This document shows, piece after piece, positions 18,145 to 38,451 of a stretch of 64,000 nt of DNA. A program made the translations under genes and the position numbers. Each line of letters opens with the position of its first letter. Within the stretch, counting starts at the first letter, position 1. The notes under the pieces were generated by a model that worked only from the letters and a program-made list of their open reading frames with translations, searched no databases and was not told where the DNA came from. The stretch comes from Gammaproteobacteria bacterium (GTDB taxonomy: Bacteria > Pseudomonadota > Gammaproteobacteria > Pseudomonadales > Porticoccaceae), in assembly GCA_016191205.1 (NCBI GenBank), contig JACPPB010000026.1, forward strand, positions 1 to 64,000. The letters are read 5' to 3'.

Positions 18145-18156
18145 TTTCGCTCCGGC

Positions 18157-19104: not shown

Positions 19105-19265
19105 CGGGCGGCATCAAACCGGTGGCTGGCGGGGACACCACTATACCAAGGCCAGCCGCGGGCGAGCATCCATCTGAATCGCCCTCCCCATGACCTGGCG
19201 CAGACCCCGGCTCTGGCGGGAGGGTAGCGGATCGGTGTAGGCTCCCCGCCAGAACCGAAACCGAG

Positions 19266-19901: not shown

Positions 19902-20052
19902 CCGGTCCGGCGGGGACCGGGCGCGCTCGACGTGCGCTGCGGGAGACCTTACCATGACCCAGTCTGGCCGAAGTGGTCAGGCCATGCGTCGCCTGGCCCA
20001 CTCGACGCTCCAGCCAGCACGATAGAACAACAAGATCCACGGCGAGGAACCC

Positions 20053-21384
20053 ATGACGCACGCAATCGCTCGCTGCGGCCGCGTTTTGACCGAAGTGAAC
20101 CGCCGTGGTGCGCACGCTCTCCTCGCTGCGGTCATCCTTTTGAGCGGTGCCGCCAGGGCCGAAGACGACGCTCCCGGGTCGCCCACTTTTGCACTGCATG
20201 GTTTCGGTACGCTGGGCGCCATCCACTCGGACCAGAACTACTCCGACGTGGTTTCCAGTGTCTATCTGCAACCCAACGGGGCCGGCGCCACCAGCGCCTG
20301 GAGCACGGGCGTGGGCAGCAAGGCCGGCGTGCAACTCGATGCCTTGTTCAGCCCGAGACTGTCGGCCGTCGTGCAAGTGCTGTCCCAGCACCGCTACGAC
20401 AATTCCTGGACCCCGACGATCGAGTGGGCGAACGTCAAATACCAGGTCACGCCCGAACTGAGTGTGAGGGTCGGCCGCACTGTCTCCTCGATATTCATGA
20501 CGTCCGACACCGCCAATGTGGGCTACGCCAACCTGTGGCTCCGCGCGCCCCAGGAAATCTACGGCATGGTCCCTTTCACCCATCAGGACGGCATTGACCT
20601 CGCCTGGAATATCAATATTGGCCCGGCGACAAACTCGGTTCAGGCCAGTTTCGGGAGCAACAAGTTCGACGTCATCGACGGTGACAAAATCAAGGTGGGT
20701 AAAATGTTCATTGCCAGCGACACTCTCGATTACGGAGTGCTGGCACTGCGTGTCGGCTATGTACACACCGACGTCACCTTTGACTCATCCGGCCTCGACG
20801 CCTTGCTCAAGGGTTTGTCCAACTTCGGCAATACCCTCACTCTGTCGGGGTTTCCCACGGAAGGAGACAGCGCAAGCACCCTCGCCAATGGCTACAACAT
20901 GGATCACACACCCATTGAAGCCTTCACCGCCGGCCTCCGCGCCGATCCGGGAAACTGGCGCTTGACCGCCGAATGGGCCCGGATATCCGATGCCGGGATT
21001 CTGCCCAAAACGACAGGCTGGTATATCACCAATGGTTATCAGCTGCGCACACTGACACCGTACATCACCATCGCCACACTGGATTCCAAAACCCCGGCGG
21101 AATCCGGAATCCCTCTCGCCGGCCTCCCCACGGGGCCGTTGTCGGGCGTGGGAGACGCGCTGAATCGCGGTCTGGGAGTGGTTCTGGATATGGCCGCTCC
21201 GTCCCAGAAGAGCCTGACCCTGGGTTTGCGTTGGGATCTGCTCGACAACGCCGCCCTCAAGTTCGAATACGAACACATTCGCCTCGACGATCTTTCCGGC
21301 GGACGTTTCGGCAATCTGCAACCGGGATTCAAGCCGGGAGGTGATGCGGATCTGTTCTCCATCGCCCTCGACTTCGTGTTTTGA
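20053..21384 (+). CDS. Outer-membrane beta-barrel porin-like protein
   Basis: Signal peptide; repeated amphipathic beta-strand pattern; C-terminal Phe ('SIALDFVF'). Confidence 0.75.
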   Translation: MTHAIARCGRVLTEVNRRGAHALLAAVILLSGAARAEDDAPGSPTFALHGFGTLGAIHSDQNYSDVVSSVYLQPNGAGATSAWSTGVGSKAGVQLDALFSPRLSAVVQVLSQHRYDNSWTPTIEWANVKYQVTPELSVRVGRTVSSIFMTSDTANVGYANLWLRAPQEIYGMVPFTHQDGIDLAWNINIGPATNSVQASFGSNKFDVIDGDKIKVGKMFIASDTLDYGVLALRVGYVHTDVTFDSSGLDALLKGLSNFGNTLTLSGFPTEGDSASTLANGYNMDHTPIEAFTAGLRADPGNWRLTAEWARISDAGILPKTTGWYITNGYQLRTLTPYITIATLDSKTPAESGIPLAGLPTGPLSGVGDALNRGLGVVLDMAAPSQKSLTLGLRWDLLDNAALKFEYEHIRLDDLSGGRFGNLQPGFKPGGDADLFSIALDFVF

Positions 21385-21392
21385 GCACACCG

Positions 21393-21833
21393 ATGACACA
21401 GGTCCCCATTTTGAACGCGCTCAGGGTCGCCGCACTCAGCACACTACTCGGCATTGCCGGCAGTCATGCCATGGCCGATGTCGTTGCGGTCGTATCCCCC
21501 AACAACCCTGCCACCACGATCAGCAAGCGTGAGGTTTCCAACATCTTTCTGGGCAAGACCAATCGCTTCCCCAACGGTGCACCTGCCGTCGCGATCGACC
21601 AGCGCGAGGGCTCGGCGCCGCGCGTGGAGTTTTACCTCAACGTCAGCAACATGCAGCCCGCGGAGATCAAGGCACATTGGTCCAAGATGATTTTTACCGG
21701 ACGGGGCCGGCCGCCCATGACGGTCGACGGCGACGAGCAGGTGAAGAAAGCGCTGGCCAGCCGACCCGACGGCATCGGGTATATCGACAGCGCCGCGGTG
21801 GATGACAGGGTCAAGGTACTGACCGTCGAGTAG
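21393..21833 (+). CDS. Small periplasmic phosphate-binding (PstS)-like protein
   Basis: Signal peptide; 'SKREVSNIFLGKTNRFPNGAPAVAIDQREGSAPRVEFYLNV...HWSKMIFTGRGRPP' typical of short PstS-like substrate-binding proteins; exact start (21381 or 21393) uncertain. Confidence 0.75.
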   Translation: MTQVPILNALRVAALSTLLGIAGSHAMADVVAVVSPNNPATTISKREVSNIFLGKTNRFPNGAPAVAIDQREGSAPRVEFYLNVSNMQPAEIKAHWSKMIFTGRGRPPMTVDGDEQVKKALASRPDGIGYIDSAAVDDRVKVLTVE

Positions 21834-21864
21834 GCCGCAATACCGTCATGTGGATGACTGATTC

Positions 21865-24159
21865 ATGCGCTTGAATGAAGGCTCGAAGAGGACGTTTCAC
21901 GCGCTGCGCCACTGGCTTGGCCGCGCCACGGAGCCACTGGTGCTGTTCCCCGGCCTCACGGTCCTGCTGCTGGCGGTGCTGTGGGTCGGCACAGCCAGTC
22001 TGATTCGCCTCGAATACGCCAATGCCCGGGCGACCGCCACAACCAGCACCCGCGAACTGAGCGAAACCTACGAGGCCCAGAGCGTGCGTGCCTTGCGGGA
22101 AATCGACCGCACACTGAAATTCGTTGCCTACGCCTATGAATCGGCGGGACTCGAATCCGTCCTGGTCGATCTCGGCGAAAAAACCCTGCTGCTCCCGAAC
22201 TTTCTGTTCACGGTAAGCATCGCCGACGCCGAGGGCGACATCCGCTCAAGCACGCACACCGGCGGGCGCGCGAACATCGCTGGCACGGATTACTTCGAGG
22301 CGCAACGCGGACAGTCTGTGTTTGCGGTCGGTGCCCCGCAACGGAACCCGGAATCACAGGACTGGATCCTCTTCTTCAGCCGGCGCCTCGAGCAGCGCGA
22401 CGGCAGCTTCGCCGGAGTGGTCGTCATATCCGTGGAGGCGTCCTACTTCGTCAGCGGATACGAGCCGGCGAAACTGGGTCAACACGGTTTTCTCGGTCTG
22501 CTCGGTACGGATGGCGTCTTTCGGGTGAGTCGCAGCGGCCACACCATGACCGCCGCTGCCGTGGTCGAGTACGAAAAAATCGTCCCCGAAGCCGACATCG
22601 ACCTGATCCCGGTTTCGCTCTCCGTCAACAGTTGGGATCAGGTGCAGCGTTACACGGCAGCGCGCGAACTCTACGAATTCCCGCTGGCCGTGATCGTCGG
22701 TTTGTCGGCGGACGAACAACTGCGCCCCGCCGCCGCAAGGGCGCGTAGCTATCTGCTGCGCAGCGGCGGCGCCAGTGTGGTGCTGATTGTCCTCATGGCC
22801 CTGCTCGGCCGTTTGAGTTGGCAGCTTCAGTTAACCCGGCAACGGGCCGCGGAGGAGCAGCTCGCGCACGCCAGGCGTATCGAATACATCGCCCATCACG
22901 ACAACCTGACCGACCTGCCCAACCGCAGCTTTTTCAGCCACATGCTGAACCAGGTGCTGGCGCTGGTCAAACGCTACGACCGCGAGTTGGCGGTGCTGTT
23001 TCTGGACCTGGACCACTTCAAGCTCATCAACGACACCCTCGGTCACGATGCCGGTGATGAACTCCTGAAGGAGGTAGCCCGCCGCCTGAAGGAAGCAGTA
23101 CGGGAAAGCGACGTCGTCGCCAGGTTGGGCGGCGACGAGTTCGTCGTGTTGCTACCGGAACAATGCGACAAAGACAGTCTTGAAATCGTCGCGCGCCGGG
23201 TACTGACTTCCGTCGGCAAGTCGTACGACTTGCATGGGCACGAGTTCCGGGTCACCGCCAGCATCGGCATCAGCCGCTATCCTCAGGATGCCGAAGACGA
23301 ACAGGGCCTGCTCCAGAATGCCGACCTTGCCATGTATCGCGCCAAGGCAAAAGGCAGAAACAAATTCCAGTTCTATGCCGAGGCCGAGGCCGAGGAAAAA
23401 CTTTCCCTGGAACGCCTGAACCTGGAATCCGCGCTGCGACAGGCCCTGGAGCGGCAGGAATTCATCCTCCACTACCAGGACCAGCGAGACCTGAACACTG
23501 GCCAGGTCACCGGAGTGGAAGCTTTGCTGCGCTGGCAACACCCGCAACTCGGCGTCATCCTGCCGATGCAGTTCCTTCCCCTGGCAGAAGAGAGCGGGCT
23601 CACCCTTCCGATCGGCAAATGGGTGATCGAGACCGCGTGCCGGGATTGCGCGGCCATGCAGACGGCGGACGGGCGGCGCTTGACCATGTCCATCAACCTG
23701 TCGGCCCGGCAATTTGCCGACGAGAACCTGACCCGCGACCTGGCGAGCATCCTCGACAAAACCGGTATCGAACCGGACCTTCTGGAGCTCGGCGTCGCGG
23801 AGAGCGTGCTGCTGACCGATGTCGACAAGGCAGTTTCGATACTGGGTGAAATCAGAGCCCTTGGCGTACGGGTTGCGATCGACAACTTCGGGGCCAGCTA
23901 CTCGTCCCTGTCGACCCTGAGCCGGTTCCGTTTCGACACGGTCAACATCGACGGCAGCGTCATTCGGGATTATGCGCATAGTCCGGAGGACAGAAAATTG
24001 ACCGAAGCGACCATTGCCATGGGCAAGAATCTGGCCTTCACCGTGGTGGCCGAAGGCGTGGAAACCGAGGAACAGGCGCAGTTCCTGCGCGACAGTGCCT
24101 GCGACAAGGCGCAGGGGTTTTATTTCGGGCATCCAGCACCGAGGAACAGGGATGGTTGA
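21865..24159 (+). CDS. Cache-GGDEF-EAL protein (diguanylate cyclase with degenerate EAL domain)
   Basis: N-terminal TM and dCache-like periplasmic region; 'RESDVVARLGGDEF' (intact A-site and RxxD I-site); EAL-domain signatures 'EALLRW', 'NLSARQF', 'DNFGASYSS', 'EGVE'. Confidence 0.9.
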   Translation: MRLNEGSKRTFHALRHWLGRATEPLVLFPGLTVLLLAVLWVGTASLIRLEYANARATATTSTRELSETYEAQSVRALREIDRTLKFVAYAYESAGLESVLVDLGEKTLLLPNFLFTVSIADAEGDIRSSTHTGGRANIAGTDYFEAQRGQSVFAVGAPQRNPESQDWILFFSRRLEQRDGSFAGVVVISVEASYFVSGYEPAKLGQHGFLGLLGTDGVFRVSRSGHTMTAAAVVEYEKIVPEADIDLIPVSLSVNSWDQVQRYTAARELYEFPLAVIVGLSADEQLRPAAARARSYLLRSGGASVVLIVLMALLGRLSWQLQLTRQRAAEEQLAHARRIEYIAHHDNLTDLPNRSFFSHMLNQVLALVKRYDRELAVLFLDLDHFKLINDTLGHDAGDELLKEVARRLKEAVRESDVVARLGGDEFVVLLPEQCDKDSLEIVARRVLTSVGKSYDLHGHEFRVTASIGISRYPQDAEDEQGLLQNADLAMYRAKAKGRNKFQFYAEAEAEEKLSLERLNLESALRQALERQEFILHYQDQRDLNTGQVTGVEALLRWQHPQLGVILPMQFLPLAEESGLTLPIGKWVIETACRDCAAMQTADGRRLTMSINLSARQFADENLTRDLASILDKTGIEPDLLELGVAESVLLTDVDKAVSILGEIRALGVRVAIDNFGASYSSLSTLSRFRFDTVNIDGSVIRDYAHSPEDRKLTEATIAMGKNLAFTVVAEGVETEEQAQFLRDSACDKAQGFYFGHPAPRNRDG

Positions 24160-24282
24160 TTCGTTGAACCGGTTGCGGAAAAACGTCTCAAGCACCGCCA
24201 ACTGCGCGGCGCGCGGCGGCCAAGACATCTCGTATAGACTGACGAGTGTCCGGGAACCGCGCACCAAGGCGGATAGCATCGC

Positions 24283-25380
24283 TCACCGGGGCGGCTCGAA
24301 ACTGACGCTTTTCACCAGCGCCCACACCCGCTGCCCGGCCGCCAGTCCGAGTGTCGCCACCGCTTCGCGGGTGATGCGGGCGCGCAGGTGTGCGCCGTCC
24401 TCCTCCGGTCCAAGGGCAAGCAGCACCTCGGCGTTGGAACCGGCGGAATCCTCGGCAATGCGCAGCACCGTCACGGCAAGCTGATTGCGGATACTGACAC
24501 CTTCGATGCGCTGCAAGGCAATCGCCACATCGCGGGCGCGCACCCGCAGACGCACGGGAGACCCGACAGCAACCTCGATCCGGGGCACCGCCATGCGCTG
24601 CCCCGCAACAGCAATTTCCGTCAGCGCATACTCGGGCACCTGCCCCATCACGCTCCCGTTGAGCACCACACCGGCATCAAAGTGGCCGGATATCGCCTCG
24701 GCTTCCGGCCGCTCCAGCACTTCATGGACTTCGCCGCGCGCAACGACGCGACCGTCGGCAAGGATCAGCACTCGGTCGGCGAGTTGGGCGACTTCCTCCA
24801 CGGCGTGAGAGACGTAGATGAGCGGGATCCCGAAGCGCGCCGGCAATTGGCGAATGTAGGGCAGCAGCTCCGCCTTGCGTTTCAGATCCAGCGCCGCCAG
24901 CGGCTCATCCAGCAACAGCAGGCGCGGATTGGCCAGCAACGCCCGGGCGATGGCCACGCGCTGGCGCTCGCCACCCGACAGGCCGCCGACGCGGCGGTCG
25001 AGCACCGGGGCCAGGTCAAGCGCCGCGACCACCTCGTCGAAACCTGGCGCATGCGCGCCCGGCCTAGCCCGGTCGAGCGCGTAGCGCAGATTGCCGGCCA
25101 CCTTGCGATGGGCGAAGAGGCGCGCGTCCTGGAACACATAACCGATCCCGCGCCGATAGGGCGGCAGATTCACACCGCGGGTACTGTCCAGCAACGCCTC
25201 GCCGTCGATAACGATGCGCGCCGACGCCGGGGTTTCCAGCCCGGCCAGCGCGCGCAACAGGGTGCTCTTGCCGCTGCCGGATACCCCCATCACGGCAGTG
25301 ACCCCGGCCAGGTCGATGGTCTCCGCGACGCTGAGCGCGAACCCCGGGTGACTCACCTCAAGGACGCATTCCAGCCTCAT
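24283..25380 (-). CDS. modC: Molybdate ABC transporter ATP-binding protein
   Basis: 'GVSGSGKSTLLRALAGLE', 'LSGGERQRVAIARALLANPRLLLLDEPLAALD', C-terminal TOBE-like domain; gene context. Confidence 0.92.
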   Translation of the reverse strand: MRLECVLEVSHPGFALSVAETIDLAGVTAVMGVSGSGKSTLLRALAGLETPASARIVIDGEALLDSTRGVNLPPYRRGIGYVFQDARLFAHRKVAGNLRYALDRARPGAHAPGFDEVVAALDLAPVLDRRVGGLSGGERQRVAIARALLANPRLLLLDEPLAALDLKRKAELLPYIRQLPARFGIPLIYVSHAVEEVAQLADRVLILADGRVVARGEVHEVLERPEAEAISGHFDAGVVLNGSVMGQVPEYALTEIAVAGQRMAVPRIEVAVGSPVRLRVRARDVAIALQRIEGVSIRNQLAVTVLRIAEDSAGSNAEVLLALGPEEDGAHLRARITREAVATLGLAAGQRVWALVKSVSFEPPR

Positions 25381-25753
25381 GTGGCGTGTATCGGGAAGCG
25401 GCGGTTCAGCACATAGATCAGCGCCGGCACGACGAAGGAGAACACCAGCAGCCCCCCGGAGAGCAGATGCGCCTGGGCGAACTGGAGCGTCTCCACCTGC
25501 TCGTAGATGGCGATCGAGATCACCCGGGTGCGGCCCGGGATGTTGCCGCCCACCATCAGCACCACGCCGAACTCGCCGAGCGTATGCGCGAAACCCAGCA
25601 CGCTGGCGGTGATGTAGCCGCGCAGGGCCAGCGGGCTGGCGACACTGAAAAACGCATCCAGCGCAGTGGCGTGCCGACCAGCAGCAGCAGTCCCACCGCT
25701 ACGGTGGCCAGATGCAGCGTGAGCCAGACCGGGCCGAGATCGAGATCGTTCAT
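25377..25753 (-). pseudogene. modB: Molybdate ABC transporter permease with internal deletion and frameshift
   Basis: N-terminus 'MNDLDLGPVWLTLHLATVAVGLLLLVGTPL' in one frame; C-terminus 'ATALDAFFSVASPLALRGYITASVLGFAHTLGEFGVVLMVGGNIPGRTRVISIAIYEQVETLQFAQAHLLSGGLLVFSFVVPALIYVLNRR' in another; the central ~95-120 codons of ModB are absent. Confidence 0.85.
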
Positions 25754-25757
25754 GGCG

Positions 25758-26501
25758 TCAGGGCAGCCCGTAGCCGAGTTCCGCCATCACGGCGCGAGCC
25801 GGCGGGCTCTTGAGGTAGTCGAGAAACGCCTGCGCCGCCGGGTTGGCGCGGGCGCGGGTGATCAGGATGGCGTCCTGCTTCAGCGGCGGGTACAGATCCT
25901 CCGGCACCGCCCAGTGGCTGCCGGGTTTGGGACCGGTGATGACGGACGACAACGCAACGAAGCCGGCTTCAGCCGCACCGCTCGCCACCATCGCGTAGAC
26001 CTGCCCGATATCCTCGCCACGCACGATCCTGTCCTGCACGGCCGCCCGCAAACCGAGTTTTTCCAGTACCTGCTGCGCCGCCGCGCCGTAAGGCGCCACC
26101 GCCGGATTGGCAATGGCCAGATGGCGGAAAGTGCCGGCGCGCAGGTAAGCGGCGCCATCCTCGCTGATCGCCTGCGGGTCCGGGCTCCACAGCGCCAGCC
26201 GCCCGATGGCGTAGGTAAAGCGCGAGGCCGGCACGCCGAGACCGCTGTTGGCCAGCAGCTCGGGACGCTCGACATCGGCGGACAGCAGCACGTCGAAGGG
26301 CGCACCCTGCTGAATTTGCTGCACCAGCTTGCCGGAAGACCCCGGCACCAGGGTGAGCCGGTGGCCGGTCGTTTGCTCAAAACCCGGTTCGATACGCGCC
26401 ATGGCGGCGGCGAAATTAACGGCGACCGCGGCCACGACCTCTTCGGCGCGGGTGTCAGCGATGCCGAGCAGCAATACGGCAGTCAGGACGAAGGCTCTCA
26501 T
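25758..26501 (-). CDS. modA: Molybdate ABC transporter substrate-binding protein
   Basis: 'AAVAVNFAAAMARIEPGFEQTTGHRLTLVPGSSGKLVQQIQQGAPFDVLLSADVERPELL'. Confidence 0.92.
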   Translation of the reverse strand: MRAFVLTAVLLLGIADTRAEEVVAAVAVNFAAAMARIEPGFEQTTGHRLTLVPGSSGKLVQQIQQGAPFDVLLSADVERPELLANSGLGVPASRFTYAIGRLALWSPDPQAISEDGAAYLRAGTFRHLAIANPAVAPYGAAAQQVLEKLGLRAAVQDRIVRGEDIGQVYAMVASGAAEAGFVALSSVITGPKPGSHWAVPEDLYPPLKQDAILITRARANPAAQAFLDYLKSPPARAVMAELGYGLP

Positions 26502-27304
26502 GCGTTGACCCCCAGGATCACGCTGCCGGCCTTGAACACCGCGCAGGCGGGCCCGCCCTTGCTGAGTTGCAGGTTGTCGAGGCTGTCATTGGTGATGATG
26601 GCGCTGACCGCGGTGCCGCCAGTCAGATCGATCACCACATCGGCATTGACGCTGCCGCGGGTGATGCGCGACACCGTGCCGCACAGCCGGTTGCGGGCCG
26701 ACAACTTGATGCCCGGGTCGAGCGTGGTCAGCAGCACCGAGGGCGCCTTCACCAGCGCCCAGACCTCGCTGCCCGGCACGAGCTGCAATTCCGACAGACT
26801 TTCCATGGTGATCATGGCGACCAGGCGATCGTGGTCGTTCAGGGTGACGGTCACTTCGGCGTTCACCGAACCGACGCGGATGCCGGTCACGGTGCCGAAA
26901 AACTGGTTGCGGGCGCTGGTTTTCACGGCCAATCTCCTGATGAGTTGATAGGTGTCTGCCTGTTCGAGCTGTTCCTGCAGGCCGATCAGGAAGCGGCGCT
27001 GGTGTTCGTGAACCACCCGGTGGGTGAGCACCAGCCGCTCACCGGCCGGCGTCAATCGGGTGCCGCCGCCGGCGCTGCCGCCGCTTTGCGTCACCACCAA
27101 GGCTTCACCGGCCAGGTTGCGCAGGGCATCGACCGCGTTCCAGGCGGCGCGGTAGCTCATGCCCATGGCCTTGGCCGCCTGGCTGATGGAGCCGGTGGTG
27201 CCGATCAGCTCCAGCAGCCGGATGCGGCGATCCTCCAGTTGTCCTCCGCCATCGGGACCGAGCTCGACCTTGCCCTTGATCTGCCAGCGCGTCTGCGGGG
27301 ACAT
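26498..27304 (-). CDS. modE: Molybdate-responsive transcriptional regulator ModE
   Basis: N-terminal wHTH 'RRIRLLELIGTTGSISQAAKAMGMSYRAAWNAVDAL' plus two TOBE/MOP domains; SD AGGAGG before ATG 27304. Confidence 0.93.
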   Translation of the reverse strand: MSPQTRWQIKGKVELGPDGGGQLEDRRIRLLELIGTTGSISQAAKAMGMSYRAAWNAVDALRNLAGEALVVTQSGGSAGGGTRLTPAGERLVLTHRVVHEHQRRFLIGLQEQLEQADTYQLIRRLAVKTSARNQFFGTVTGIRVGSVNAEVTVTLNDHDRLVAMITMESLSELQLVPGSEVWALVKAPSVLLTTLDPGIKLSARNRLCGTVSRITRGSVNADVVIDLTGGTAVSAIITNDSLDNLQLSKGGPACAVFKAGSVILGVNA

Positions 27305-27319
27305 GTACTCCCTCCTCAT

Positions 27320-27345
27320 GCGTTATGAATAGCGGTGCATAACGC
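27320..27345. promoter_or_regulatory. Candidate ModE box upstream of modE and the divergent NifZ-like ORF
   Basis: Inverted repeat GCGTTATG-N10-CATAACGC, resembling CGnTAT...ATAnCG ModE operators. Confidence 0.65.
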
Positions 27346-27411
27346 TAGTCGAATTAACCCTCGATAACAATCACGCAAGAACGAAGCCAAACTGGATGGC
27401 AGCGCTTCGGC

Positions 27412-27741
27412 GTGGAAAATAATAGCAAAATCAATCTATTGGAGATTCAGCCCGGAACCCCGGCGGCGAAACAGACGCCCAGAACGTCGGGAACCCTACA
27501 ACCGGGGTGTCGTCATGACGCCCGGGCGATCCACAACGACGGCAGCCTGCCGGACCATGACGCAGAGGCCCTGCTGGTTCCCGCCGGCGGCCGCGGGGTC
27601 ATCGTGAATATCGGCCACCTCGAGCAGGACCCAAGGCAGGTTCTGTACCTGGTGCGCTTCGAAGGCGAGGACGGGGTGTTGGGACCGCCGGTGGGCTGCT
27701 GGCCGCAGGATCTGCACAGTGCGCCGCCCGCTGCGTCCTAA
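27412..27741 (+). CDS. NifZ-like domain protein
   Basis: 'AIHNDGSLPDHDAEALLVPAGGRGVIVNIGHLEQDPRQVLYLVRFEGEDGVLGPPVGCWPQDL' resembles the NifZ pattern (NDGT..G..L..G..G.V...G...Q....Y.V.F...VGC...EL); GTG start. Confidence 0.6.
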   Translation: MENNSKINLLEIQPGTPAAKQTPRTSGTLQPGCRHDARAIHNDGSLPDHDAEALLVPAGGRGVIVNIGHLEQDPRQVLYLVRFEGEDGVLGPPVGCWPQDLHSAPPAAS

Positions 27742-27948
27742 GCGTGGAGCCGGGGCGTTTCTCGCTCTCATCCGACCATATGGCACCAAGTATTGCCCCC
27801 TAGCCAGGCGCGGCCGGCGTTCGCCTCCGGCCGCTGCATCCGGTCAAGTAAAGTGCGTTGGTACGCCTGATCTGGTGCGACGCCATGGGCAACCGGGCAG
27901 TTTTGACCGGTTGCCGCAAGTGTTGCGTCCCCCAGCCGCACGACTGCT

Positions 27949-29031
27949 TCATTGGCCGTGGCGGGACGTCTCCTCTGTGGCAGCGGCAGGACGCGGCTGG
28001 CTCGGATCGAAGGCCCTGAACGACGGGTTGTCGTACTTGCCGTAGGGTTTTTTTAACGATTCGCTCATGTAGAAATCCGGATCGTATGCGATGTCCTTCC
28101 ACATATAAAAATCGGGCTTCTCGATACCTTCATATTCGACCGTCAACATCGCCCCGCCGCCTTCTTTGCCAGCCGAGGTGGTGTGTTCCTCGATGTGATC
28201 GTGTGCCATCCAAATACCGGGATTGTTCATCTTAATGATGAGGTCGTAGCGCTCGCCTGGCTGCAATGCAATCACATCCACCATATAGGGCGCCGGAACC
28301 GGAAGGCCGTCCTTGTGCGTCACCATTGCGTCGTGTCCATGCGGGTGGAAAGCCACCGGCGAGGTCGGCGCGTACAGGCGCAGACGCAGCACGTCGCCCT
28401 CCTTCACGCGTATGGGCTGGTTGCCCGGGTGCGCCTTTCCGTTGATGGAAAAATAGTCCAGCACCCGATGCGGGACGCCGTTCTTGCCGTATTCCTTCGC
28501 GACCGACGAGTCCCAGCCGGAGAACATCAGTATCGCATCCTTGGTAACCTGCTTTTCCAGCTCGGTCGGTTTCTTCGGATCAACGATCATCGGCCCCCAC
28601 ATCCCGCGCAAATCGATGTGCTCGGCCGTGTTCACATGGCAGTGATACCAGAGGCTGCCGGGCTTGTCGGCGACGAAGCGATAGATAAAACTGTCACCCG
28701 GCTCGATCGCCTGCTGCGAGACGCCCGGCACACCGTCCATTTTCCAAGTATGCGTCTGATAGGTGCCATGGAAATGGATGGTGTGACTTATCGTGGTGTT
28801 GTTCTGCACGTTCACCTCGACGTTGTCGCCTTCCTGCACGTGAATCAACGGTCCGGGTACCTGCCCGTCGTAGGCCCACACCTTGGTGGTAAGGCCCGGC
28901 GCCACTTCAAGGTCGTATTCCTCGATCGTCATGTCGAATTTGCGCAACTCCGCCCGGGCGCTGAGCGTGAAACCCAGAAACCAGAGGAGGATCAATACAG
29001 CTCGTATAGTCATCATGATATTCCACTCCAC
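27949..29031 (-). CDS. Two-domain multicopper oxidase (blue copper oxidase, NcgA-like)
   Basis: 'HTIHFHGTYQTHTWKMDG', 'LWYHCHVNTAEHIDLRGMWGPMIV' (type-1 Cu in domain 1), 'AFHPHGHDAMV', 'WMAHDHIEEHTTSAG' (Cys replaced by Asp in domain 2). Confidence 0.88.
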   Translation of the reverse strand: MEWNIMMTIRAVLILLWFLGFTLSARAELRKFDMTIEEYDLEVAPGLTTKVWAYDGQVPGPLIHVQEGDNVEVNVQNNTTISHTIHFHGTYQTHTWKMDGVPGVSQQAIEPGDSFIYRFVADKPGSLWYHCHVNTAEHIDLRGMWGPMIVDPKKPTELEKQVTKDAILMFSGWDSSVAKEYGKNGVPHRVLDYFSINGKAHPGNQPIRVKEGDVLRLRLYAPTSPVAFHPHGHDAMVTHKDGLPVPAPYMVDVIALQPGERYDLIIKMNNPGIWMAHDHIEEHTTSAGKEGGGAMLTVEYEGIEKPDFYMWKDIAYDPDFYMSESLKKPYGKYDNPSFRAFDPSQPRPAAATEETSRHGQ

Positions 29032-29116
29032 GGGGAGAAATTAGAAACTGGTTCTGCGTCATTTCCCGATTCCAGGGAGAACCAAGGATGCACCCTCGTT
29101 CCCCCGCATCGATCCG

Positions 29117-29464
29117 TTAGTCTTTCTGGCAGCACAGTTCGCGCAGGTGACCGACGAGGGCATGGATGTCGTCATCGGTCAGATTGCCGCCCCAGATCGG
29201 CATCAACACCGACTTGTTGACGGATTTTCCGCCTTGCTGAATCACCTTGAACAATTCGTCGTCGGTGCGCGCGGACATTTCCTTGATATCTGAATGATCG
29301 CGCGGCTGGACTGACATATGGGCGGCATTGATGCCCTTGCCGTTGCCGTGTGCGCCATGGCACTGCGTGCAATACATGGTGTAGAGCTGGGCGCCGCGGT
29401 CGCCCTCGGCGTGTGCCACGGCACCCACTGCGAGTACCGAAGCAGCAAGCAAAAGCTTTTTCAT
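29117..29464 (-). CDS. Monoheme cytochrome c, class I
   Basis: Signal peptide 'MKKLLLAASVLAVGAVAHA', 'CTQCHGAHGNGKG', C-terminal Met region 'VLMPIWGGNLTDDDIHALVGHLR'; 4-bp overlap with upstream gene. Confidence 0.9.
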   Translation of the reverse strand: MKKLLLAASVLAVGAVAHAEGDRGAQLYTMYCTQCHGAHGNGKGINAAHMSVQPRDHSDIKEMSARTDDELFKVIQQGGKSVNKSVLMPIWGGNLTDDDIHALVGHLRELCCQKD

Positions 29465-30153
29465 GGCTGCTTCTCCCCGATCACCTTGAGATAGTCCGCC
29501 AGCTTGTGCACCGCATCCGCCTTGATATCGCCCTTCGGCATCAAGGTGTGCGGGTCCCAGGCCAGGGGATTCGCGATATATGCGCTGATGAACGCCGGCT
29601 GCAGCCGTATCCACGCCGTGTACAGCTCGGGACCCGAAACTCCGCCACTGTTCGGCGCATCCTGATGGCACGCATCGCAGCCCTTGAACTTCCCGAAGTT
29701 CATCTTCCCCATGGACTTGGCGATGGTGCCGGGCTGGTAGGTTTCGGCCTTGATCAGATCGTCGAAGGGCTTGAGCGTCATGAGATAATCGGCCATCGCG
29801 TCGGCCTGCGCGGCCGGCACTGCCGGATGCTCGGCCAAGCTGGCCGCGTCGACAACATCGCCGTTCGGTCCGTCTTTCACATGCGCGGGCGGGAATACGC
29901 CCGCCGGCCGAATGCGGGTGGGATTCTGCAGCCAGCTGACCAACCAGGCGCGCTGGAATTTGTTGCCGGCAAAATCCAGCGGCGGGGCCTTGCGTTCGGC
30001 GCGCTCCTGAATGCCCAAGGTCGCGTAGTCGTGCGTGAGGGCATGGCAGGTGCCGCATTGCTGCTGCACATCCCCAGCCGTATCGGCCTTTGCCGCGCCG
30101 GGGACGCCCGCTGCCAACATTGCCGCCACGCCCAGACTGAACAGGTGTTTCAC
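29461..30153 (-). CDS. Diheme cytochrome c
   Basis: Two CxxCH motifs: CGTCH and CDACH; signal peptide. Confidence 0.88.
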   Translation of the reverse strand: MKHLFSLGVAAMLAAGVPGAAKADTAGDVQQQCGTCHALTHDYATLGIQERAERKAPPLDFAGNKFQRAWLVSWLQNPTRIRPAGVFPPAHVKDGPNGDVVDAASLAEHPAVPAAQADAMADYLMTLKPFDDLIKAETYQPGTIAKSMGKMNFGKFKGCDACHQDAPNSGGVSGPELYTAWIRLQPAFISAYIANPLAWDPHTLMPKGDIKADAVHKLADYLKVIGEKQP

Positions 30154-30189
30154 GGGTACTCCTTTGTTCCTTGTGCGTTGACCGAGGGA

Positions 30190-31131
30190 TCAACGAAGAA
30201 TCAATTGATCGCCATGCCCTTTCAGGGGATTGGCGTCCTTGCTGTTCATCAGCACGGTGATGCCGCCGTTCATCGCGTGCTTCATGCTGTGATCGACCAG
30301 CGCATTGTTGGTGGGGCGATCTTTCGGGCTGATGATGTCCAGGATCACGCCATGTGCAGGGGGTACCTGCATGGTCTGCATGCCCCACAGCACGTTCTTC
30401 GGATTGCCGTTGTCCCACACGCGGTCCCAGATGCCGGCGATCGGGTGAAAAGCCGCCCATTCGTTGATCATCGCGTTGACGAAATAGATGCGAACGCGCT
30501 CGCCAGGCTGCGATTCAAGCGCGATGCCGGCATTGGAGTCGTGCACCGGGTCGTAATGGAAAAGCCTGCCGTTGACCAGCACTCCTTGCCATTTATCGCC
30601 CGCGGTACGCTCCTTGCCGGAAGCCCCCGCTTCGAACAGATCGCCGTGGACGAGGACGTACTCGCGATCGGGTTTCGGGAACACCTCGCTGTAGCCTTCC
30701 TTGGGGTCGACGATCACCACGCCGTACATGCCGCGCGAGATGTGCTCGGCCATCGAATCAGAGCCGCAGTGATAGATCCAGACGCCGGGGTGTTCGGCCT
30801 TGAAGGTAAAGTTTTTCTTCTCGCCGGGCTTGATCGACTCAAAATCGGTCAACACGTCCAAGCGTCCGGCGTGGAAATCCATCGAGTGGCTGTTCTTGTT
30901 GGCGGGATCGTTGAGCAGCGTGAAATCGATGGTATCCCCTTCGTTGACGCGCACCAGCGGTCCCGGGATGGTGCCGTTGTAGGTCCACATCGGTGCCTTG
31001 GTTCCAGCGTTGTCGATCTGCAGCTCAACTTCGCGCACCGGAATCTCGACCTTGACAGTCGCGGCCAGCGCGCTTGCGGAAGATGTCGCGGTGGCCAGTA
31101 GCAGCACGAGAGCGAGGGAACGATGTTTCAT
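30190..31131 (-). CDS. nirK: Copper-containing nitrite reductase, ammonia-oxidiser (Nitrosomonas)-like type
   Basis: 'NKNSHSMDFHAGRLDVLTDFESIKPGEKKNFTFKAEHPGVWIYHCGSDSMAEHISRGMYGVVIVDPKEG' (type-1 Cu H/C/H/M and type-2 Cu His, catalytic Asp), 'FHPIAGIWDRVW', 'LVDHSMKHAMNGGITVLM'. Confidence 0.85.
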   Translation of the reverse strand: MKHRSLALVLLLATATSSASALAATVKVEIPVREVELQIDNAGTKAPMWTYNGTIPGPLVRVNEGDTIDFTLLNDPANKNSHSMDFHAGRLDVLTDFESIKPGEKKNFTFKAEHPGVWIYHCGSDSMAEHISRGMYGVVIVDPKEGYSEVFPKPDREYVLVHGDLFEAGASGKERTAGDKWQGVLVNGRLFHYDPVHDSNAGIALESQPGERVRIYFVNAMINEWAAFHPIAGIWDRVWDNGNPKNVLWGMQTMQVPPAHGVILDIISPKDRPTNNALVDHSMKHAMNGGITVLMNSKDANPLKGHGDQLILR

Positions 31132-31175
31132 GTAGGTATTCCTCTTTTCGGTTTAGGTTTTAGCGCAAGATCAGC

Positions 31176-31189
31176 TTGACCCATATCAA
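31176..31189 (-). promoter_or_regulatory. FNR/NNR-like box in norR-nirK intergenic region
   Basis: TTGAC-CCAT-ATCAA (one mismatch to TTGAT-N4-ATCAA). Confidence 0.45.
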
Positions 31190-31200
31190 AAACCGGGCCA
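31186..31200 (-). promoter_or_regulatory. Candidate sigma-54 (-24/-12) promoter for nirK operon
   Basis: Minus strand TGGCCCGGTTTTTGA compared with TGGCACG-N4-TTGCW; correct GG to G spacing, -12 C replaced by A. Confidence 0.45.
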
Positions 31201-31224
31201 GAATTATTTTTAATATATTTCAAC

Positions 31225-31256
31225 AGGTTAATAACCTATGTTGTTTAATAAGCAAC
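31225..31256. promoter_or_regulatory. Two adjacent palindromes in the norR-nirK intergenic region
   Basis: AGGTTAATAACCT (31225-31237, perfect) and GTTGTTTAATAAGCAAC (31240-31256, near-perfect). Confidence 0.5.
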
Positions 31257-31294
31257 TTCAGTTATGATGTTTTTTTGACAACATTGATGTCTCG

Positions 31295-32836
31295 ATGACT
31301 ACGTCCGATGCCTTTGTCAATCTTGCCGGCGCCGTCGCGGATCTTTCCAAGGCAATGCCCAGGGAGACCCGGTATGCGCGCCTGCTCGATGCCTTCCGGC
31401 GCAGCTTTCCCTGCGACGCAATCGCCCTGCTCGCGCGCGACGGCGAGCAACTCATACCGCGCGCGGTAGAGGGCCTCAGCACCGATACACTGGGGCGGCG
31501 CTTCGTGATTCGTGATCACCCACGCCTGGCGCAGATCCTGCACAGTACCGAACCGGTACGCTTTCCCGCCGGCTCCGCACTCCCCGATCCGTATGACGGT
31601 CTGGTCGAGAAAGCGGGTGATCATCTGTACGTGCACGACTGCATGGGTGCCTCGCTGTACATCGACGAGCAGCCCTGGGGTGTGGTGACGCTGGATGCCA
31701 TGACGCCGGAAAGCTTCGACGCGATCGACCTCGATATTTTTCGCGCTTTCGTCGCGGTGGCCGCGGCCACCGTGCGCGCCGCGGACTGGATTCAGCACCT
31801 GGAAGAACAGCTCGAACGTCATCACCGCATCCAGCGCTCGGGGGTGCACGAGGGCGCTGCGGATGAATTGATCGGACAAAGCCCGGCCATGCTGCAAATG
31901 GAGCGCGAAGCGCAGATCGTCGCGCCCTCTGACCTGCCCGTGCTGATCCTCGGCGAAACCGGTGTCGGGAAGGAACTGGTGGCGCGCAGGATTCATCGCC
32001 ATTCGGCGCGCGCGCAAGAACCGATGGTCTACATCAACTGCGCCGCACTGCCCGAATCGCTCGCCGAAAGCGAACTGTTCGGTCACATGCGCGGCGCGTT
32101 TTCAGGCGCCACCGAGGATCGCATCGGCAAGTTCGAACTGGCGCACGAAGGTACGCTGTTTCTCGACGAGATCGGGGAATTGCCCCTGACGGTACAGGCG
32201 AAACTGCTGCGCGCACTGCAGAACGGCGACATTCAGCGCATCGGCAGCGACAGGCAGCATCGCGTCGACGTGCGTGTGATTGCCGCCACAAACCGGGATC
32301 TGAAGCATGAAGTCGCGACCGGCCGCTTCCGCATCGACCTCTACCATCGCCTCAGTGTTTATCCACTCCTGGTGCCACCGCTGCGCGAACGCGGCGAGGA
32401 TGTGCTGATGCTCGCGGGCTATTTCATCGAGCGCAATCAGCGCCGTCTCGGTCTACGCGGCGCGCGACTGAGCCGTGGCGTACGCCAGTGGCTGACGCGG
32501 TATCCGTGGCCAGGCAACGTGCGGGAACTTGAACACACGCTTTCCCGCGCAATGATCCGCGCGCTGAGCGTCGCTTCCTCGCGCGAACGCATCATCGAAC
32601 TCACAACCCAGCATCTGGGAGCGGAGGCGCAACCGATACCGGCCGAAGCGGCAGCCGCCACGCCGATTCCCGACGGCGATTCGCGTCCGCTCAACGAAAT
32701 CATCGAGCACTGTCGCCGCGAGGCGATCCAGCTGCGACTGCGTCAGCACGAGGGCAACCGCGCTTCTGCTGCGCGCTCTCTCGGACTCGACCGAGGAAAT
32801 TTCCATCGTTTGCTGAAAAAGCTGGGCCTGCGCTGA
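31295..32836 (+). CDS. norR: NorR-type nitric oxide-responsive sigma-54 activator (GAF-AAA+-Fis HTH)
   Basis: GAF 'TLGRRFVIRDHPRLAQI', 'LPDPYDGL', 'HDCMG'; AAA+ 'GETGVGKELVARRIH', 'GAFSGA', Fis-like HTH C-terminus. Confidence 0.88.
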   Translation: MTTSDAFVNLAGAVADLSKAMPRETRYARLLDAFRRSFPCDAIALLARDGEQLIPRAVEGLSTDTLGRRFVIRDHPRLAQILHSTEPVRFPAGSALPDPYDGLVEKAGDHLYVHDCMGASLYIDEQPWGVVTLDAMTPESFDAIDLDIFRAFVAVAAATVRAADWIQHLEEQLERHHRIQRSGVHEGAADELIGQSPAMLQMEREAQIVAPSDLPVLILGETGVGKELVARRIHRHSARAQEPMVYINCAALPESLAESELFGHMRGAFSGATEDRIGKFELAHEGTLFLDEIGELPLTVQAKLLRALQNGDIQRIGSDRQHRVDVRVIAATNRDLKHEVATGRFRIDLYHRLSVYPLLVPPLRERGEDVLMLAGYFIERNQRRLGLRGARLSRGVRQWLTRYPWPGNVRELEHTLSRAMIRALSVASSRERIIELTTQHLGAEAQPIPAEAAAATPIPDGDSRPLNEIIEHCRREAIQLRLRQHEGNRASAARSLGLDRGNFHRLLKKLGLR

Positions 32837-33026
32837 GCACGCCTCGGGCGTTCATGCCCGGAGTACGATGGCGGGAGCGATCCAGTCAGATCAGGCCCGC
32901 TCCAGCAGCCGGCTGAGTTACGAGACGCCGATGTAACCCAGGCCGTTGGCGAAATTCACCATGGCATCCGGATGGTGGCGCCGATCATGGGCGATGCGCA
33001 GGCTGATGACATTAGCAGGTCTTAAG

Positions 33027-34163
33027 TTATGCGCACGCCACCAGCGCACGAATGCGTCGCACCACCACTTCGAGATCGTCCGGGGGAACGGTGCCGCCGA
33101 TCCGGAACGGCTCCCCGACCCAGACCGCCAGATGGCGCTCCACCAGCAACTGGTGAAAATAACGAAAATCCCGGGTGCCGTTGAGCAATCCGAAATAGTC
33201 GAAGCGATAGACCAGCCGCGCCAGCCACTGCCGGACGCGGTCGGCGCGCGTCTCCCCGCGCGGGTCGAACAGTTTGCGCAGCAGCACGCGGCGCGCCTGA
33301 TCCACTCCGCCGAGCAGGCCGGTCGGGAGGGGAAAGATCGCCAGCGGCTTGCCCAGGGCGGCCACTTCCACCAGCATCGAAATACTGTCGCCGGTAACCA
33401 CGAAACCGTTCGCGGTGCCCAGCAGCGCGCGATAGGGGTTGTCGGCCTGGCTGCCCCTGGCATCGTCCTGCTCCGCCTCGGCCGGCCACGCAAAAAACGG
33501 CACAGCGGACGGCAACTGCTTGCGCAACCGCGCCACCACCGCCGCCGGCGTGCGCCGACTGGTCACCACATAGGGTGTACCGCCCAGATCGCGAATACGC
33601 CGGGTTTCCGCGATCAACGCCCGCGTGACCCTGGCGTTCATCACAAAAGGACCGGTGGGGCCACCCACGAACACCGCGATCAGGGGCCGCTGCAGGGGTG
33701 CCAGGCGGCTGCGCCAGCGCTCCGCTTCGGCCTGGATCGCGTCTGTGCTGACCCGCATCAGCGGCAGGGTGACCGGCAGGTAGTTGGGCAGGGGTGGCAG
33801 ATGGTTCTCGCCGCTCGCCACCACCAGATCGAATACGTGCATGGCGCCCGAGGGCTTGCCGATATGAATGACGCGGGTGCGATTGCCGGATTGCTGCCGC
33901 ACCCAGAGCGCCGCCATCGCGGGCCGGCGGCCGACGGTGATGATCAGGTCGGGCCAGGGCGGGGTCAGCGGATCGGAGCGCTCCAGGTCCAGATGGTCGA
34001 GGGTGCGCCGAAAGCGCGGCTTGGCGACCACATACTTCGAACGCATCACCAGCATTTTGCGATCGCAGGGCCAGCCCAGCGCGGCGGCGACCGCTTCGAC
34101 CTGGCCGTTGTCGCCGCGCTTGTCGCCCAGCAGCAGCCAGGTGACGGGAGTCAACGCCAGCAT
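33027..34163 (-). CDS. ELM1-family GT-B-like protein, paralogue B (divergent)
   Basis: 'VTWLLLGDKRGDNGQVEAVAAALGWPCDRK', 'PPWPDLIITVGRRPAMAALWVRQQSG', 'VIHIGKPSG', 'VFVGGPTGPF', 'FVVTGDSISMLVEVAALGKPLAIF'. Confidence 0.8.
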   Translation of the reverse strand: MLALTPVTWLLLGDKRGDNGQVEAVAAALGWPCDRKMLVMRSKYVVAKPRFRRTLDHLDLERSDPLTPPWPDLIITVGRRPAMAALWVRQQSGNRTRVIHIGKPSGAMHVFDLVVASGENHLPPLPNYLPVTLPLMRVSTDAIQAEAERWRSRLAPLQRPLIAVFVGGPTGPFVMNARVTRALIAETRRIRDLGGTPYVVTSRRTPAAVVARLRKQLPSAVPFFAWPAEAEQDDARGSQADNPYRALLGTANGFVVTGDSISMLVEVAALGKPLAIFPLPTGLLGGVDQARRVLLRKLFDPRGETRADRVRQWLARLVYRFDYFGLLNGTRDFRYFHQLLVERHLAVWVGEPFRIGGTVPPDDLEVVVRRIRALVACA

Positions 34164-35511: not shown

Positions 35512-37245
35512 ATGCGGCTGATGCTGGCGCTGTTCCACAAGCACCGCTGGCGCACCATAACCATGCTGTTGGCGCTGTTGTTGTCCGGGCTCGCCGAGGG
35601 CGCCGGTATCTCGGCGCTGCTGCCGCTGCTCAATGTCGCCATCGCCGCGGACCGCGGCGCCGGCGCCGCGGTGACCCCGCCCGGCCAGTTCGAACAGATC
35701 GTCATTGATCTGCTGGCTTACCTGGGCATCGCCCCGACCATTGGCTCGCTGTTGCTCATCATCGTCGCCGGCGTCGCCCTCAAGAGTGTGCTGCTGCTGG
35801 TGGTGCTGCGCCAGGTGGGCTACACCGCGGCCCAGCTCGGCACCGAGCTGCGGCTCGACCTGCTGCGCGCGATCCTGCGCAGCCGCTGGGAGTACTTTCT
35901 TCACCAACCGATCGGCAAACTCACCAACGGCCTTGCCACCGAGGCGCAGCGCTCGTCCGATTCCTATGTGTACGGGGCGACCGCGGCCACCTTCATGATC
36001 AACGCGCTCATCTACGGCGCCATCGCCGTGGCGATCTCCTGGCAGGCGACATTGCTGAGCCTGATCGCCGGAATGCTGGTCATCGGCGCGTCACATTTCC
36101 TGGTGCGCGCGACGCGCCGTGCGGGCCGGCGCCAGACACTTCTGCTCTCCTCCCTGATGGCGCGCCTCACCGATACCCTGCAATCGGTCAAGCCGCTCAA
36201 GGCGATGGCGCGGGAACACCTGGCCGACACGGTCCTGGCGGGTGAGACCTATCGCCTCAATCGCGCGCTGGAACGCCAGGTATTCAGCAGCGCGCTGCTG
36301 AATTCGGTGCAGGATCTGCTGTTTGCCCTGTTCATCGCCCTGGGCATGTACATCGCGCTGGTGACTTTCAACGTCGAACTGAAGACCGTGCTGGTGCTGG
36401 CGATCACGCTGGGACGAGGCTTCGGATCCCTCGGCAAGGTGCAGAAGCAGTATCAGAAGCTGGCCCAAGGCGAGAGTGCGTACTGGTCGCTGCAGGGGTC
36501 GATCGACGCCGCCACCGCCGCTGCGGAGCATCTGGGCGACGGCCGCGCGCCCAGCCTGGAACAGGGCATCCGCGTCGAACATCTATCCTTCAGCTATGAC
36601 CAGCGGCAAGTGTTCGAGGATCTGTCCCTGGAGTTCCCGGCGCGGACTCTGACCGCCCTGATCGGCCCCTCGGGCGCCGGCAAGACCACGATCATCGACC
36701 TCGCCATCGGCCTGGTACGCCCCTCGGCGGGGGAGATTTTTGTCGACGGTATCGCGATGGGCGAACTGGACCTGCGCGCCTGGCGCAGCCTGATCGGTTA
36801 CGTGCCCCAGGACACCGTGCTCTTGCACGACAGCGTGCTGCACAACGTCACGCTGGGCGACACCGCGCTCACGCCCGCCGACGCGGAAAACGCCCTGCGC
36901 GCCGCCGGCATCTGGGATTTCGTCGCCGCGCTGCCGGAAGGCATGAACACGCTGGTCGGGGAGCGCGGCGGCAAATTGTCCGGGGGTCAACGCCAGCGGG
37001 TCGCCATCGCGCGCGCGCTGGTCAACAAACCGCGCCTGCTGATCCTGGACGAGGCAACCAGCGCGCTCGATCCCGTCAGCGAGCGGGAAATCTGCCAGAC
37101 CCTGGTCGGCCTCAAGAACGATCTGACCATTCTGGCGATCTCCCACGACAGTGCCCTGGTGGACATTGCCGACCGGGTCTACGAACTGGCGCGCGGCCAA
37201 GCCCGGTTGCTGGAGCCGCAGCGCTCAACCGTCCAGATCAAATAA
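35512..37245 (+). CDS. ABC exporter, fused permease-ATPase (MsbA-like)
   Basis: N-terminal TM domain; 'GPSGAGKTTIIDLAIGLV', 'LSGGQRQRVAIARALVNKPRLLILDEATSALD'; start at ATG 35512. Confidence 0.9.
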   Translation: MRLMLALFHKHRWRTITMLLALLLSGLAEGAGISALLPLLNVAIAADRGAGAAVTPPGQFEQIVIDLLAYLGIAPTIGSLLLIIVAGVALKSVLLLVVLRQVGYTAAQLGTELRLDLLRAILRSRWEYFLHQPIGKLTNGLATEAQRSSDSYVYGATAATFMINALIYGAIAVAISWQATLLSLIAGMLVIGASHFLVRATRRAGRRQTLLLSSLMARLTDTLQSVKPLKAMAREHLADTVLAGETYRLNRALERQVFSSALLNSVQDLLFALFIALGMYIALVTFNVELKTVLVLAITLGRGFGSLGKVQKQYQKLAQGESAYWSLQGSIDAATAAAEHLGDGRAPSLEQGIRVEHLSFSYDQRQVFEDLSLEFPARTLTALIGPSGAGKTTIIDLAIGLVRPSAGEIFVDGIAMGELDLRAWRSLIGYVPQDTVLLHDSVLHNVTLGDTALTPADAENALRAAGIWDFVAALPEGMNTLVGERGGKLSGGQRQRVAIARALVNKPRLLILDEATSALDPVSEREICQTLVGLKNDLTILAISHDSALVDIADRVYELARGQARLLEPQRSTVQIK

Positions 37246-38451
37246 CGCCCGCACCCGGGCCACCGCGCGCGCCACATCCCCGCCGGCATCACTCTGCCAG
37301 TGGGGCTCCGGATCGCCCAGCCAGACCGCACGGCCGCTCGCCACCAACTGCCGGTGGATCAGAGTGATGTCGCGGGACAGACGCTGCCAGCCCCAGCGCA
37401 TCAGGGCGCGGTACAGCAGCCCGCTCAGGCGAAAGTCATTCCCGTCGGGATCAGCGCGCACATCGGCGCCCGCACCACCACAACCGGCACGCATGCTGTG
37501 ACGTCCAGTGCCCAGGTCGAAGAGGTACAGTGGCTTTCCGGTCGCGCAGGCTTCCGACAGCATGGAAACGCTGTCGGCAGTGACGACAAACGCGTCCGCC
37601 AGCGCCAGATAACCGAAATAGGGATTGGTGGCAGCATCCGGTTGCCAGGCATAAAAATGCGTGGGCACGCCCAGATCCCCGGCAAACACCCGGGTCGCCG
37701 CGTCCGCCGTGCGCGGGCTGGTGGTGATCAGCAGGGAACCGCCGCGCTGGCGGGCCAGCGCCGTCGCGGCGTCAGCCAGCCGGCGCGCGGCTTTCGCGCC
37801 GAGCGTGAAGGGGCCGCTGTCGCCGCCCAGGATCACGGCGATGCGCGGCGCCGGCAGTTGTGCCAGCGCGTCCCGCCAGCGCGCGGCCGCCTCGCGCAGG
37901 CGGGAGGCCTGGACCCCGTGCAGGGGCAGGTCGTTGTGCAGCACATTGGCACGCCGGGGCAGCCGGTACTGCGGCGTGGTGATGACCAGATCAAAGCGTG
38001 CCGGATCGGCCCAGGGGCGGCCGACATGGACGATCCGGCAGCGCCCGCCGGACTGCCTGCGGATCCATCGGCCCACGGGTTCGTTGCGCATGCCCGCCGA
38101 AATCACCAGATCCGGCCAGGGCGCCGCCAGCGCAGCGGAGCGGCGCCGGTCGATACCCCGCAGCGAGCTGCCGCGCAGCAGATTGGTGCCAAACGCCAGG
38201 GTCCGATAATGCAGATGCTTGGTCTCGAAGGGCCAGTCCAGCGCCTCAGCCAGCGCCAGCACCTGCTGTTGCTCGCCTGTGCGGTAGGGTTCCAGCAGCC
38301 ATACCCGGGGTGTTGCGGAAGTCTTCCGGGACAGGTTGGTCGGGGATGCTGAAGTGGTAATGGTGAGGGCCTGCGGGTATATTGGCGCGGCGCAATGTAG
38401 CCCACCGCCCCGCCCCTCACAAGTTGCTCTCAGCCTGACGCCCCAGCCCAT
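37225..38451 (-). CDS. ELM1-family GT-B-like protein, paralogue C (start uncertain, probably internal)
   Basis: 'RVWLLEPYRTGEQQQVLALAEALDWPFETK', 'APWPDLVISAGMRNEPVGRWIRRQSGG', 'VHVGRPWAD', 'ITTPQYRLP', 'VILGGDSGPF', 'ADAFVVTADSVSMLSEACATGKPLYLF'. Confidence 0.8.
   Translation of the reverse strand: MGWGVRLRATCEGRGGGLHCAAPIYPQALTITTSASPTNLSRKTSATPRVWLLEPYRTGEQQQVLALAEALDWPFETKHLHYRTLAFGTNLLRGSSLRGIDRRRSAALAAPWPDLVISAGMRNEPVGRWIRRQSGGRCRIVHVGRPWADPARFDLVITTPQYRLPRRANVLHNDLPLHGVQASRLREAAARWRDALAQLPAPRIAVILGGDSGPFTLGAKAARRLADAATALARQRGGSLLITTSPRTADAATRVFAGDLGVPTHFYAWQPDAATNPYFGYLALADAFVVTADSVSMLSEACATGKPLYLFDLGTGRHSMRAGCGGAGADVRADPDGNDFRLSGLLYRALMRWGWQRLSRDITLIHRQLVASGRAVWLGDPEPHWQSDAGGDVARAVARVRALFDLDG

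Follow-up and report, generated by a model that had tools for sequence, protein, structure and literature searches.

The gammaproteobacterial genome GCA_016191205.1 (Porticoccaceae) carries nirK and three ncg-like genes beside norR, and we consider it rather probable that this horizontally acquired set, a putative periplasmic NirK-NcgBCA system, is a device against nitric oxide (NO) and nitrite stress. The window referred to below is the whole stretch of DNA that was analysed, 64,000 nucleotides of contig JACPPB010000026.1.

Gene content and order of the cluster

The minus strand of the window contains, from 31131 to 27949, a four-gene copper/cytochrome cluster:

30190..31131, minus strand: nirK, NeNIR-type two-domain copper nitrite reductase, 313 aa, with a signal-like N-terminal stretch; top PDB match 4KNS
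29461..30153, minus strand: ncgB-like diheme cytochrome c, 230 aa, two CXXCH motifs (CGTCH and CDACH)
29117..29464, minus strand: ncgC-like monoheme cytochrome c, 115 aa, one CXXCH motif (CTQCH)
27949..29016, minus strand: ncgA-like two-domain multicopper oxidase of the 2ZWN/3G5W type

A preliminary description, made from the sequence alone, had proposed these four genes in the succession nirK, diheme cytochrome, monoheme cytochrome and multicopper oxidase, with a 4-bp overlap between the cytochromes. All of this is real, as judged from the PDB matches and the CXXCH motifs, and the overlap, between the ncgC start and the ncgB stop, reads ATGA. The label nirK-ncgCBA given there has to be changed. 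The diheme product matches the diheme gene of a Nitrosomonas ncg cluster (41% over 226 residues) and the monoheme product matches Nitrosomonas ncgC (51% over 89 aa), whereas the crossed comparisons (diheme with ncgC, monoheme with ncgB) gave short or weak matches only; the order is therefore nirK-ncgB-ncgC-ncgA. The statement that this order is reversed relative to Nitrosomonas was also inexact. The operon is not simply that of Nitrosomonas turned round: nirK and ncgA have traded ends, the order ncgB-ncgC is unchanged, and the window shows one of four existing permutations. The four linked genes that characterize the NirK-NcgABC family (nirK, ncgA, ncgB and ncgC) are all present, in an order other than ncgA-ncgB-ncgC-nirK; order does not define the family, because four orders occur in it.

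The monoheme cytochrome contains a Cytochrome_CBB3 domain above cut-off. The multicopper oxidase, with domains Cu-oxidase_3 and Cu-oxidase_2 above their cut-offs, has 2ZWN as its top PDB match (E = 3e-130), followed by 3G5W of Nitrosomonas europaea (E = 4e-110). We assign 3G5W to the NcgA type since it is also the top match of the first gene in a Nitrosomonas ABC-nirK cluster. The listed open reading frame of the oxidase covers 27949-29031, with a GTG start at 29031; the true start is probably the ATG at 29016.

NirK type and distribution of the gene set

The best PDB match of the window NirK is by far 4KNS, the N. europaea enzyme NeNIR (E = 2.4e-102; next distinct sequence, 2.7e-49), with a local identity of 55% over 284 aa, and the NeNIR-like stretches quoted in the preliminary description are present. 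Copper-site conservation, on which that description had staked its assignment, is complete in the full alignment: the type 1 ligands H82, C122, H130 and M135, the type 2 ligands H87, H121 and H281, and the catalytic residues D85 and H229 (window numbering) are all found in the window NirK. These nine residues are kept across all 75 NeNIR-type rows, one of which is gapped at H281.

The NirK tree has 90 rows, comprising NeNIR, the collected loci, class I rows (Agrobacterium, Rhizobium and Phaeobacter) and class-II-like rows. The 75 NeNIR-type rows form a clade with support 100/99, with the class I and class-II-like rows outside, which bears out the view that the window NirK is of the NeNIR rather than the classical type and rules out its assignment to class I or II. 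Seven rows, NeNIR included, constitute a Nitrosomonas group (100/100). The window NirK lies outside it and groups with Zoogloeaceae (five rows, 100/88) within a clade of 36 rows (100/99), most of them nirK-first. The deepest joins of the tree, on long branches (Thermus and locus L014), are uncertain. On the NCBIfam model TIGR02376 (cut-off 296.3), the window NirK scores 175.5, below the cut-off; NeNIR (194.9) falls below it too, whereas the class I and class-II-like controls score above it. A model that NeNIR itself fails misses the NeNIR type, so the low score of the window NirK does not decide the matter.

The family sample consists of 73 loci, collected with the NirK alignment, and 50 hosts were searched. 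The loci come from several phyla; 66 of them have the complete four-gene set, and contig ends truncate at least some of the seven others; with 66 of 73 NeNIR-type loci carrying all four genes, the association is not due to chance. There are four orders: nirK-B-C-A, A-B-C-nirK (Nitrosomonas, Thiobacillus and others), B-C-A-nirK and nirK-A-B-C. The B-C orientation is kept in all of them, and under parsimony the order must have changed three or more times on the NirK tree. In two Zetaproteobacteria loci the gene set is partly duplicated, with doubled cytochrome pairs, B-C-nirK-nirK-A-B-C (L079) and B-C-nirK-A-B-C (L081); tandem duplication followed by loss would explain the permutations.

Occurrence of the set outside ammonia oxidisers has already been published, for Nitrobacter (PMC5080386) and Zetaproteobacteria (PMC3603346). 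In our sample, amoA was found in only 3 of the 50 hosts. The cluster is not an ammonia-oxidiser oddity, and the term 'ammonia-oxidiser type' used in the preliminary description does not suit a NirK that sits in a separate nirK-first clade with Zoogloeaceae denitrifiers and others.

Two loci of the sample also carry a further NirK. In a Pseudohongiella MAG (L024), a second NirK (5963-6778, minus strand), 33% identical to that of the window, lies about 3.5 kb from the NeNIR-type nirK, so that both types coexist in one locus. In a Betaproteobacteria MAG (L094), nirK adjoins a classical-like NirK, and ncgABC is on the opposite strand, facing it.

Acquisition and the norR promoter region

Comparison of flank synteny with genus and family relatives places the cluster in an insertion:

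19902..33026, no strand: insertion containing the cluster, norR, modE, modA, modB (broken), modC and a GGDEF-EAL gene

In a genome of the same genus, orthologues of 17071-19901 are followed by about 960 bp and then by the orthologue of 33027-34163; a genome of the same family has a gap of about 6 bp where the window has 13.1 kb. The multicopper oxidase had no match in the three genus mates searched. NeNIR-type NirK was found in only 3 other genomes of the 295 searched in the order and is absent from the other sampled genomes of the family. The cluster and norR have a GC content of 60%, lower than that of the two flanks (64% and 67%). The genus mates, the 3 genomes of 295 and the visible insertion led us to reject vertical inheritance in the host lineage. 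Identity to the Zoogloeaceae clusters is 80–83% for NirK, 80–82% for NorR and 72–74% for the multicopper oxidase; the kinship of NirK and NorR points to a transfer between distant lineages as the probable source of the cluster. The repeat search revealed no clear terminal repeats around the insertion and there is no tRNA at its edge, and we therefore do not name a type of mobile element.

It seems very improbable that the 13-kb insertion is a decaying, non-functional passenger or a chimera of assembly or binning. The broken modB, the lower GC content and the absence of NeNIR-type NirK from other sampled genomes of the family would fit such an origin, but both flanks are syntenic with genus relatives on a contig of 143 kb, and none of the five genes (the cluster and norR) is broken, the ligand sets are complete, and the promoter elements are conserved.

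Two further observations concern this region. In modB (25381-25757, minus strand, between modA and modC), the first ~30 codons are followed by a C-terminal part that is in a different frame, and about half of the gene is missing, either because the gene has decayed or because the assembly collapsed here. Within about 20 kb lie three related ELM1-like (Mito_fiss_Elm1) genes (17071-18144, 33027-34163 and 37225-38451); such copies are clustered in family relatives as well.

The preliminary description had missed the divergent norR, the tandem NorR boxes and the sigma-54-like promoter:

31295..32836, plus strand: norR, NO-responsive sigma-54 activator, divergent from nirK (NF003451)
31289..31299, minus strand: NorR-box-like GT-N7-AC, GTCATCGAGAC, overlapping the norR start codon
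31269..31279, minus strand: NorR-box-like GT-N7-AC, GTCAAAAAAAC
31243..31253, minus strand: degenerate second box, GCTTATTAAAC, within GTTG-N9-CAAC, with GC in place of GT
31185..31200, minus strand: sigma-54-like promoter upstream of nirK, TGGCCCGGTTTTTGAT, 10 of 12 consensus positions

NorR is full length and scores 716 bits on NF003451 (cut-off 476). Relative to E. coli NorR, it conserves R75, D99, H111, C113 and D131 together with the GAF-T/S-GA loop (here GAFSGA), and has H at the position of R81; these six residues of the E. coli protein are those that we take to matter for NO sensing. The degenerate box lies 26 bp from the first box, which is the spacing of the Zoogloeaceae loci. The -12 element of the sigma-54-like site has GA for GC, both in the window and in its close relatives, and a near-identical element occurs in related NorR-linked loci. 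In each of the nine NorR-linked intergenic regions tested, tandem GT-N7-AC boxes are followed by a sigma-54-like site; when the regions were shuffled, no more than 0.1% of the trials for any one of them gave this layout, which the norR-norV region of E. coli also has. From these elements we infer control of nirK-ncgB-ncgC-ncgA by NorR and sigma-54.

NsrR and NorR are NO-sensor families, both answering nitrogen oxides. Where a linked regulator was found, it is an NsrR-like Rrf2 protein in 32 loci (called by similarity to cluster-adjacent ORFs, one of them in the Nitrosomonas nsrR position, rather than by a family model) and NorR in 13, the window included. No NsrR-like ORF was found among the window ORFs searched, where NorR adjoins the cluster instead. 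The regulator changes at least four times on the NirK tree while the four structural genes are kept, which suggests that NO or nitrite stress is the common signal of the NsrR- and NorR-linked clusters. A comparative study of 2005 lists norVW, norAB/norB, hmp, hcp, nnrS and dnrN as NorR targets and places nirK under NsrR and DNR (PMC1274295). No report of a NorR-linked nirK-ncg cluster was found in the part of the literature covered.

Several known systems can be compared with the window. The NsrR-controlled ncgABC-nirK of N. europaea (NE0927-NE0924) shares the four families (NirK, 55% to 4KNS; NcgA-type multicopper oxidase; diheme NcgB; monoheme NcgC) and an adjoining divergent NO/nitrite-responsive regulator. 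The window differs in having nirK first and ncgA last, a NirK of another clade, NorR with a sigma-54-like promoter in place of NsrR, and a location in an acquired insertion; neither ammonia oxidation genes nor an NO reductase (NOR) were detected in its host. Zoogloeaceae loci (Denitromonas and Cognatazoarcus; L027-L029 and L031) have the same order, divergent NorR and promoter layout; however, these hosts have cNOR, and Denitromonas strains are described as complete denitrifiers (PMC10581121). The nirK-ncg genes of Zetaproteobacteria (PMC3603346) and the nirK-ncgABC genes of Nitrobacter winogradskyi (PMC5080386) are the same set in hosts that are not ammonia oxidisers, in other orders, and a link to NorR is not noted for them. 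The norR-norVW region of E. coli has a divergent norR, GT-N7-AC boxes and a sigma-54 promoter in common with the window, but its target is a cytoplasmic flavorubredoxin NO reductase rather than NirK-NcgBCA.

Host genome and proposed function

The host genome (2.5 Mb in 76 contigs) is 91% complete. The preliminary description had seen no ammonia-oxidation or Nor genes in the window; the extended search likewise detected no amoA, HAO-type gene or norB in the host genome, so that the pair amoA and HAO expected of an ammonia oxidiser was not found. The first pass of the AMO search matched no control; repeated with Nitrosomonas genomes as positive controls, it gave matches in three Nitrosomonas-type hosts and none in the present one. 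The HAO search was weak and matched no control. No NarG or NapA was found above cut-off, the molybdopterin proteins of the host being two formate-dehydrogenase-like proteins and NuoG, and the single haem-copper oxidase is an aa3-type CtaD. Across the family, a cNOR- or qNOR-like gene is present in 31 of the 50 hosts and was undetected in 19, many of them MAGs; of the 13 hosts with a NorR-linked cluster, 6 are among those in which it was undetected. NOR genes adjoin the cluster in only 1 of the 73 loci.

Expression, electron flow, direction of catalysis and physiological role are predicted as follows. NorR would sense NO and, with sigma-54, turn on nirK-ncgB-ncgC-ncgA, as the tandem boxes, the promoter and the NO-sensing residues suggest. 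NirK, with its intact ligands, would interconvert nitrite and NO at the type 2 copper, NcgB and NcgC would shuttle electrons to or from it, and NcgA would be the natural O2-reducing end of the chain. The periplasmic chain NirK – NcgB/C – NcgA – O2 would thereby remove NO, the net effect being protection from nitrogen oxides under oxygen rather than respiration or ammonia oxidation. The direction from NO to nitrite, with electrons passing to O2, appears somewhat more likely, because NO is the presumed inducer and the search revealed no NO reductase. That the set is a dedicated mobile periplasmic NO oxidase, widespread in non-nitrifiers and induced by a linked NsrR or NorR, in which NirK runs backwards and NcgB/NcgC feed NcgA and O2, is a possibility that we offer tentatively.

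The stress-module reading is supported by the four-gene linkage (66/73), the NO-sensor regulators and a host with no detected norB, amoA or HAO-type gene, these host absences resting on an assembly that is 91% complete. Weighing against it, many hosts (Denitromonas, Azoarcus relatives) have a NOR, R81 of NorR is replaced by H, and the NorR boxes are short and degenerate, with GC for GT in the second in-register box of the window.

The main rival to NO removal is nitrite reduction, in which NcgB/NcgC would donate to NirK, nitrite would be reduced to NO as a step of complete or partial denitrification, and NcgA would be accessory. All CuNIR ligands are intact, 31 of 50 hosts have a NOR-like gene, and recombinant NirK of Nitrosococcus oceani is efficient on nitrite (PMC4103548). 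In Denitromonas this role is plausible, because nirK there is described as belonging to a full denitrification pathway (PMC10581121). For the window, where neither NOR nor Nar/Nap above cut-off was detected, we regard it as unlikely: an O2-reducing type of multicopper oxidase is present in nearly every cluster, and NO formed under the control of an NO-activated promoter would, with no sink to remove it, drive its own production.

The multicopper oxidase ceruloplasmin is described as an NO oxidase. NcgA, which resembles laccase-like two-domain multicopper oxidases, might likewise consume NO itself (or oxidize copper or phenol) while NirK-NcgBC only limit nitrite, the two activities being merely linked; this seems improbable, since the conserved cytochrome pair and the fixed four-gene set favour a chain and no NO site is evident in the NcgA sequence.

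Studies of nitrifiers bear on the stress-module reading. In N. europaea, ncgABC and nirK are reported to be needed for nitrite tolerance, and nirK to be harmful without ncgABC (PMC5080386); according to a proposal reported in PMC10781756, NcgABC removes the NO that NirK generates. NO consumption was observed in N. winogradskyi, which has nirK-ncgABC and lacks a known nor; that it produces NO could not be confirmed (PMC5080386). NO oxidation has been suggested for NirK (PMC10999283, PMC13170337), but the stoichiometric conversion of ammonia to nitrite by acidophilic ammonia oxidisers that have no nirK argues against NirK as the essential NO oxidase of nitrifiers (PMC13170337).

The NirK-NcgABC system is already known, also outside ammonia oxidisers (PMC3603346, PMC5080386). 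As far as the partial literature coverage goes, what appears to be new is the systematic permutation of gene order, a subset under NorR control whose promoter elements are conserved, and a free-standing copy, acquired by a host where no NOR was detected. The identity of the nitrifier enzyme that converts NO to nitrite is not established (PMC13170337); the compact, putatively NorR-controlled cluster, from a host where amoA, HAO-type genes and NOR went undetected, is a simpler system for examining possible NO consumption by NirK-NcgBCA. NeNIR-type NirK scores under the NCBIfam NirK cut-off and, where it is counted as nirK, may not mark denitrification. The position of the cluster beside norR, in recently gained DNA, suggests that it serves the handling of NO or nitrite stress rather than nitrification.
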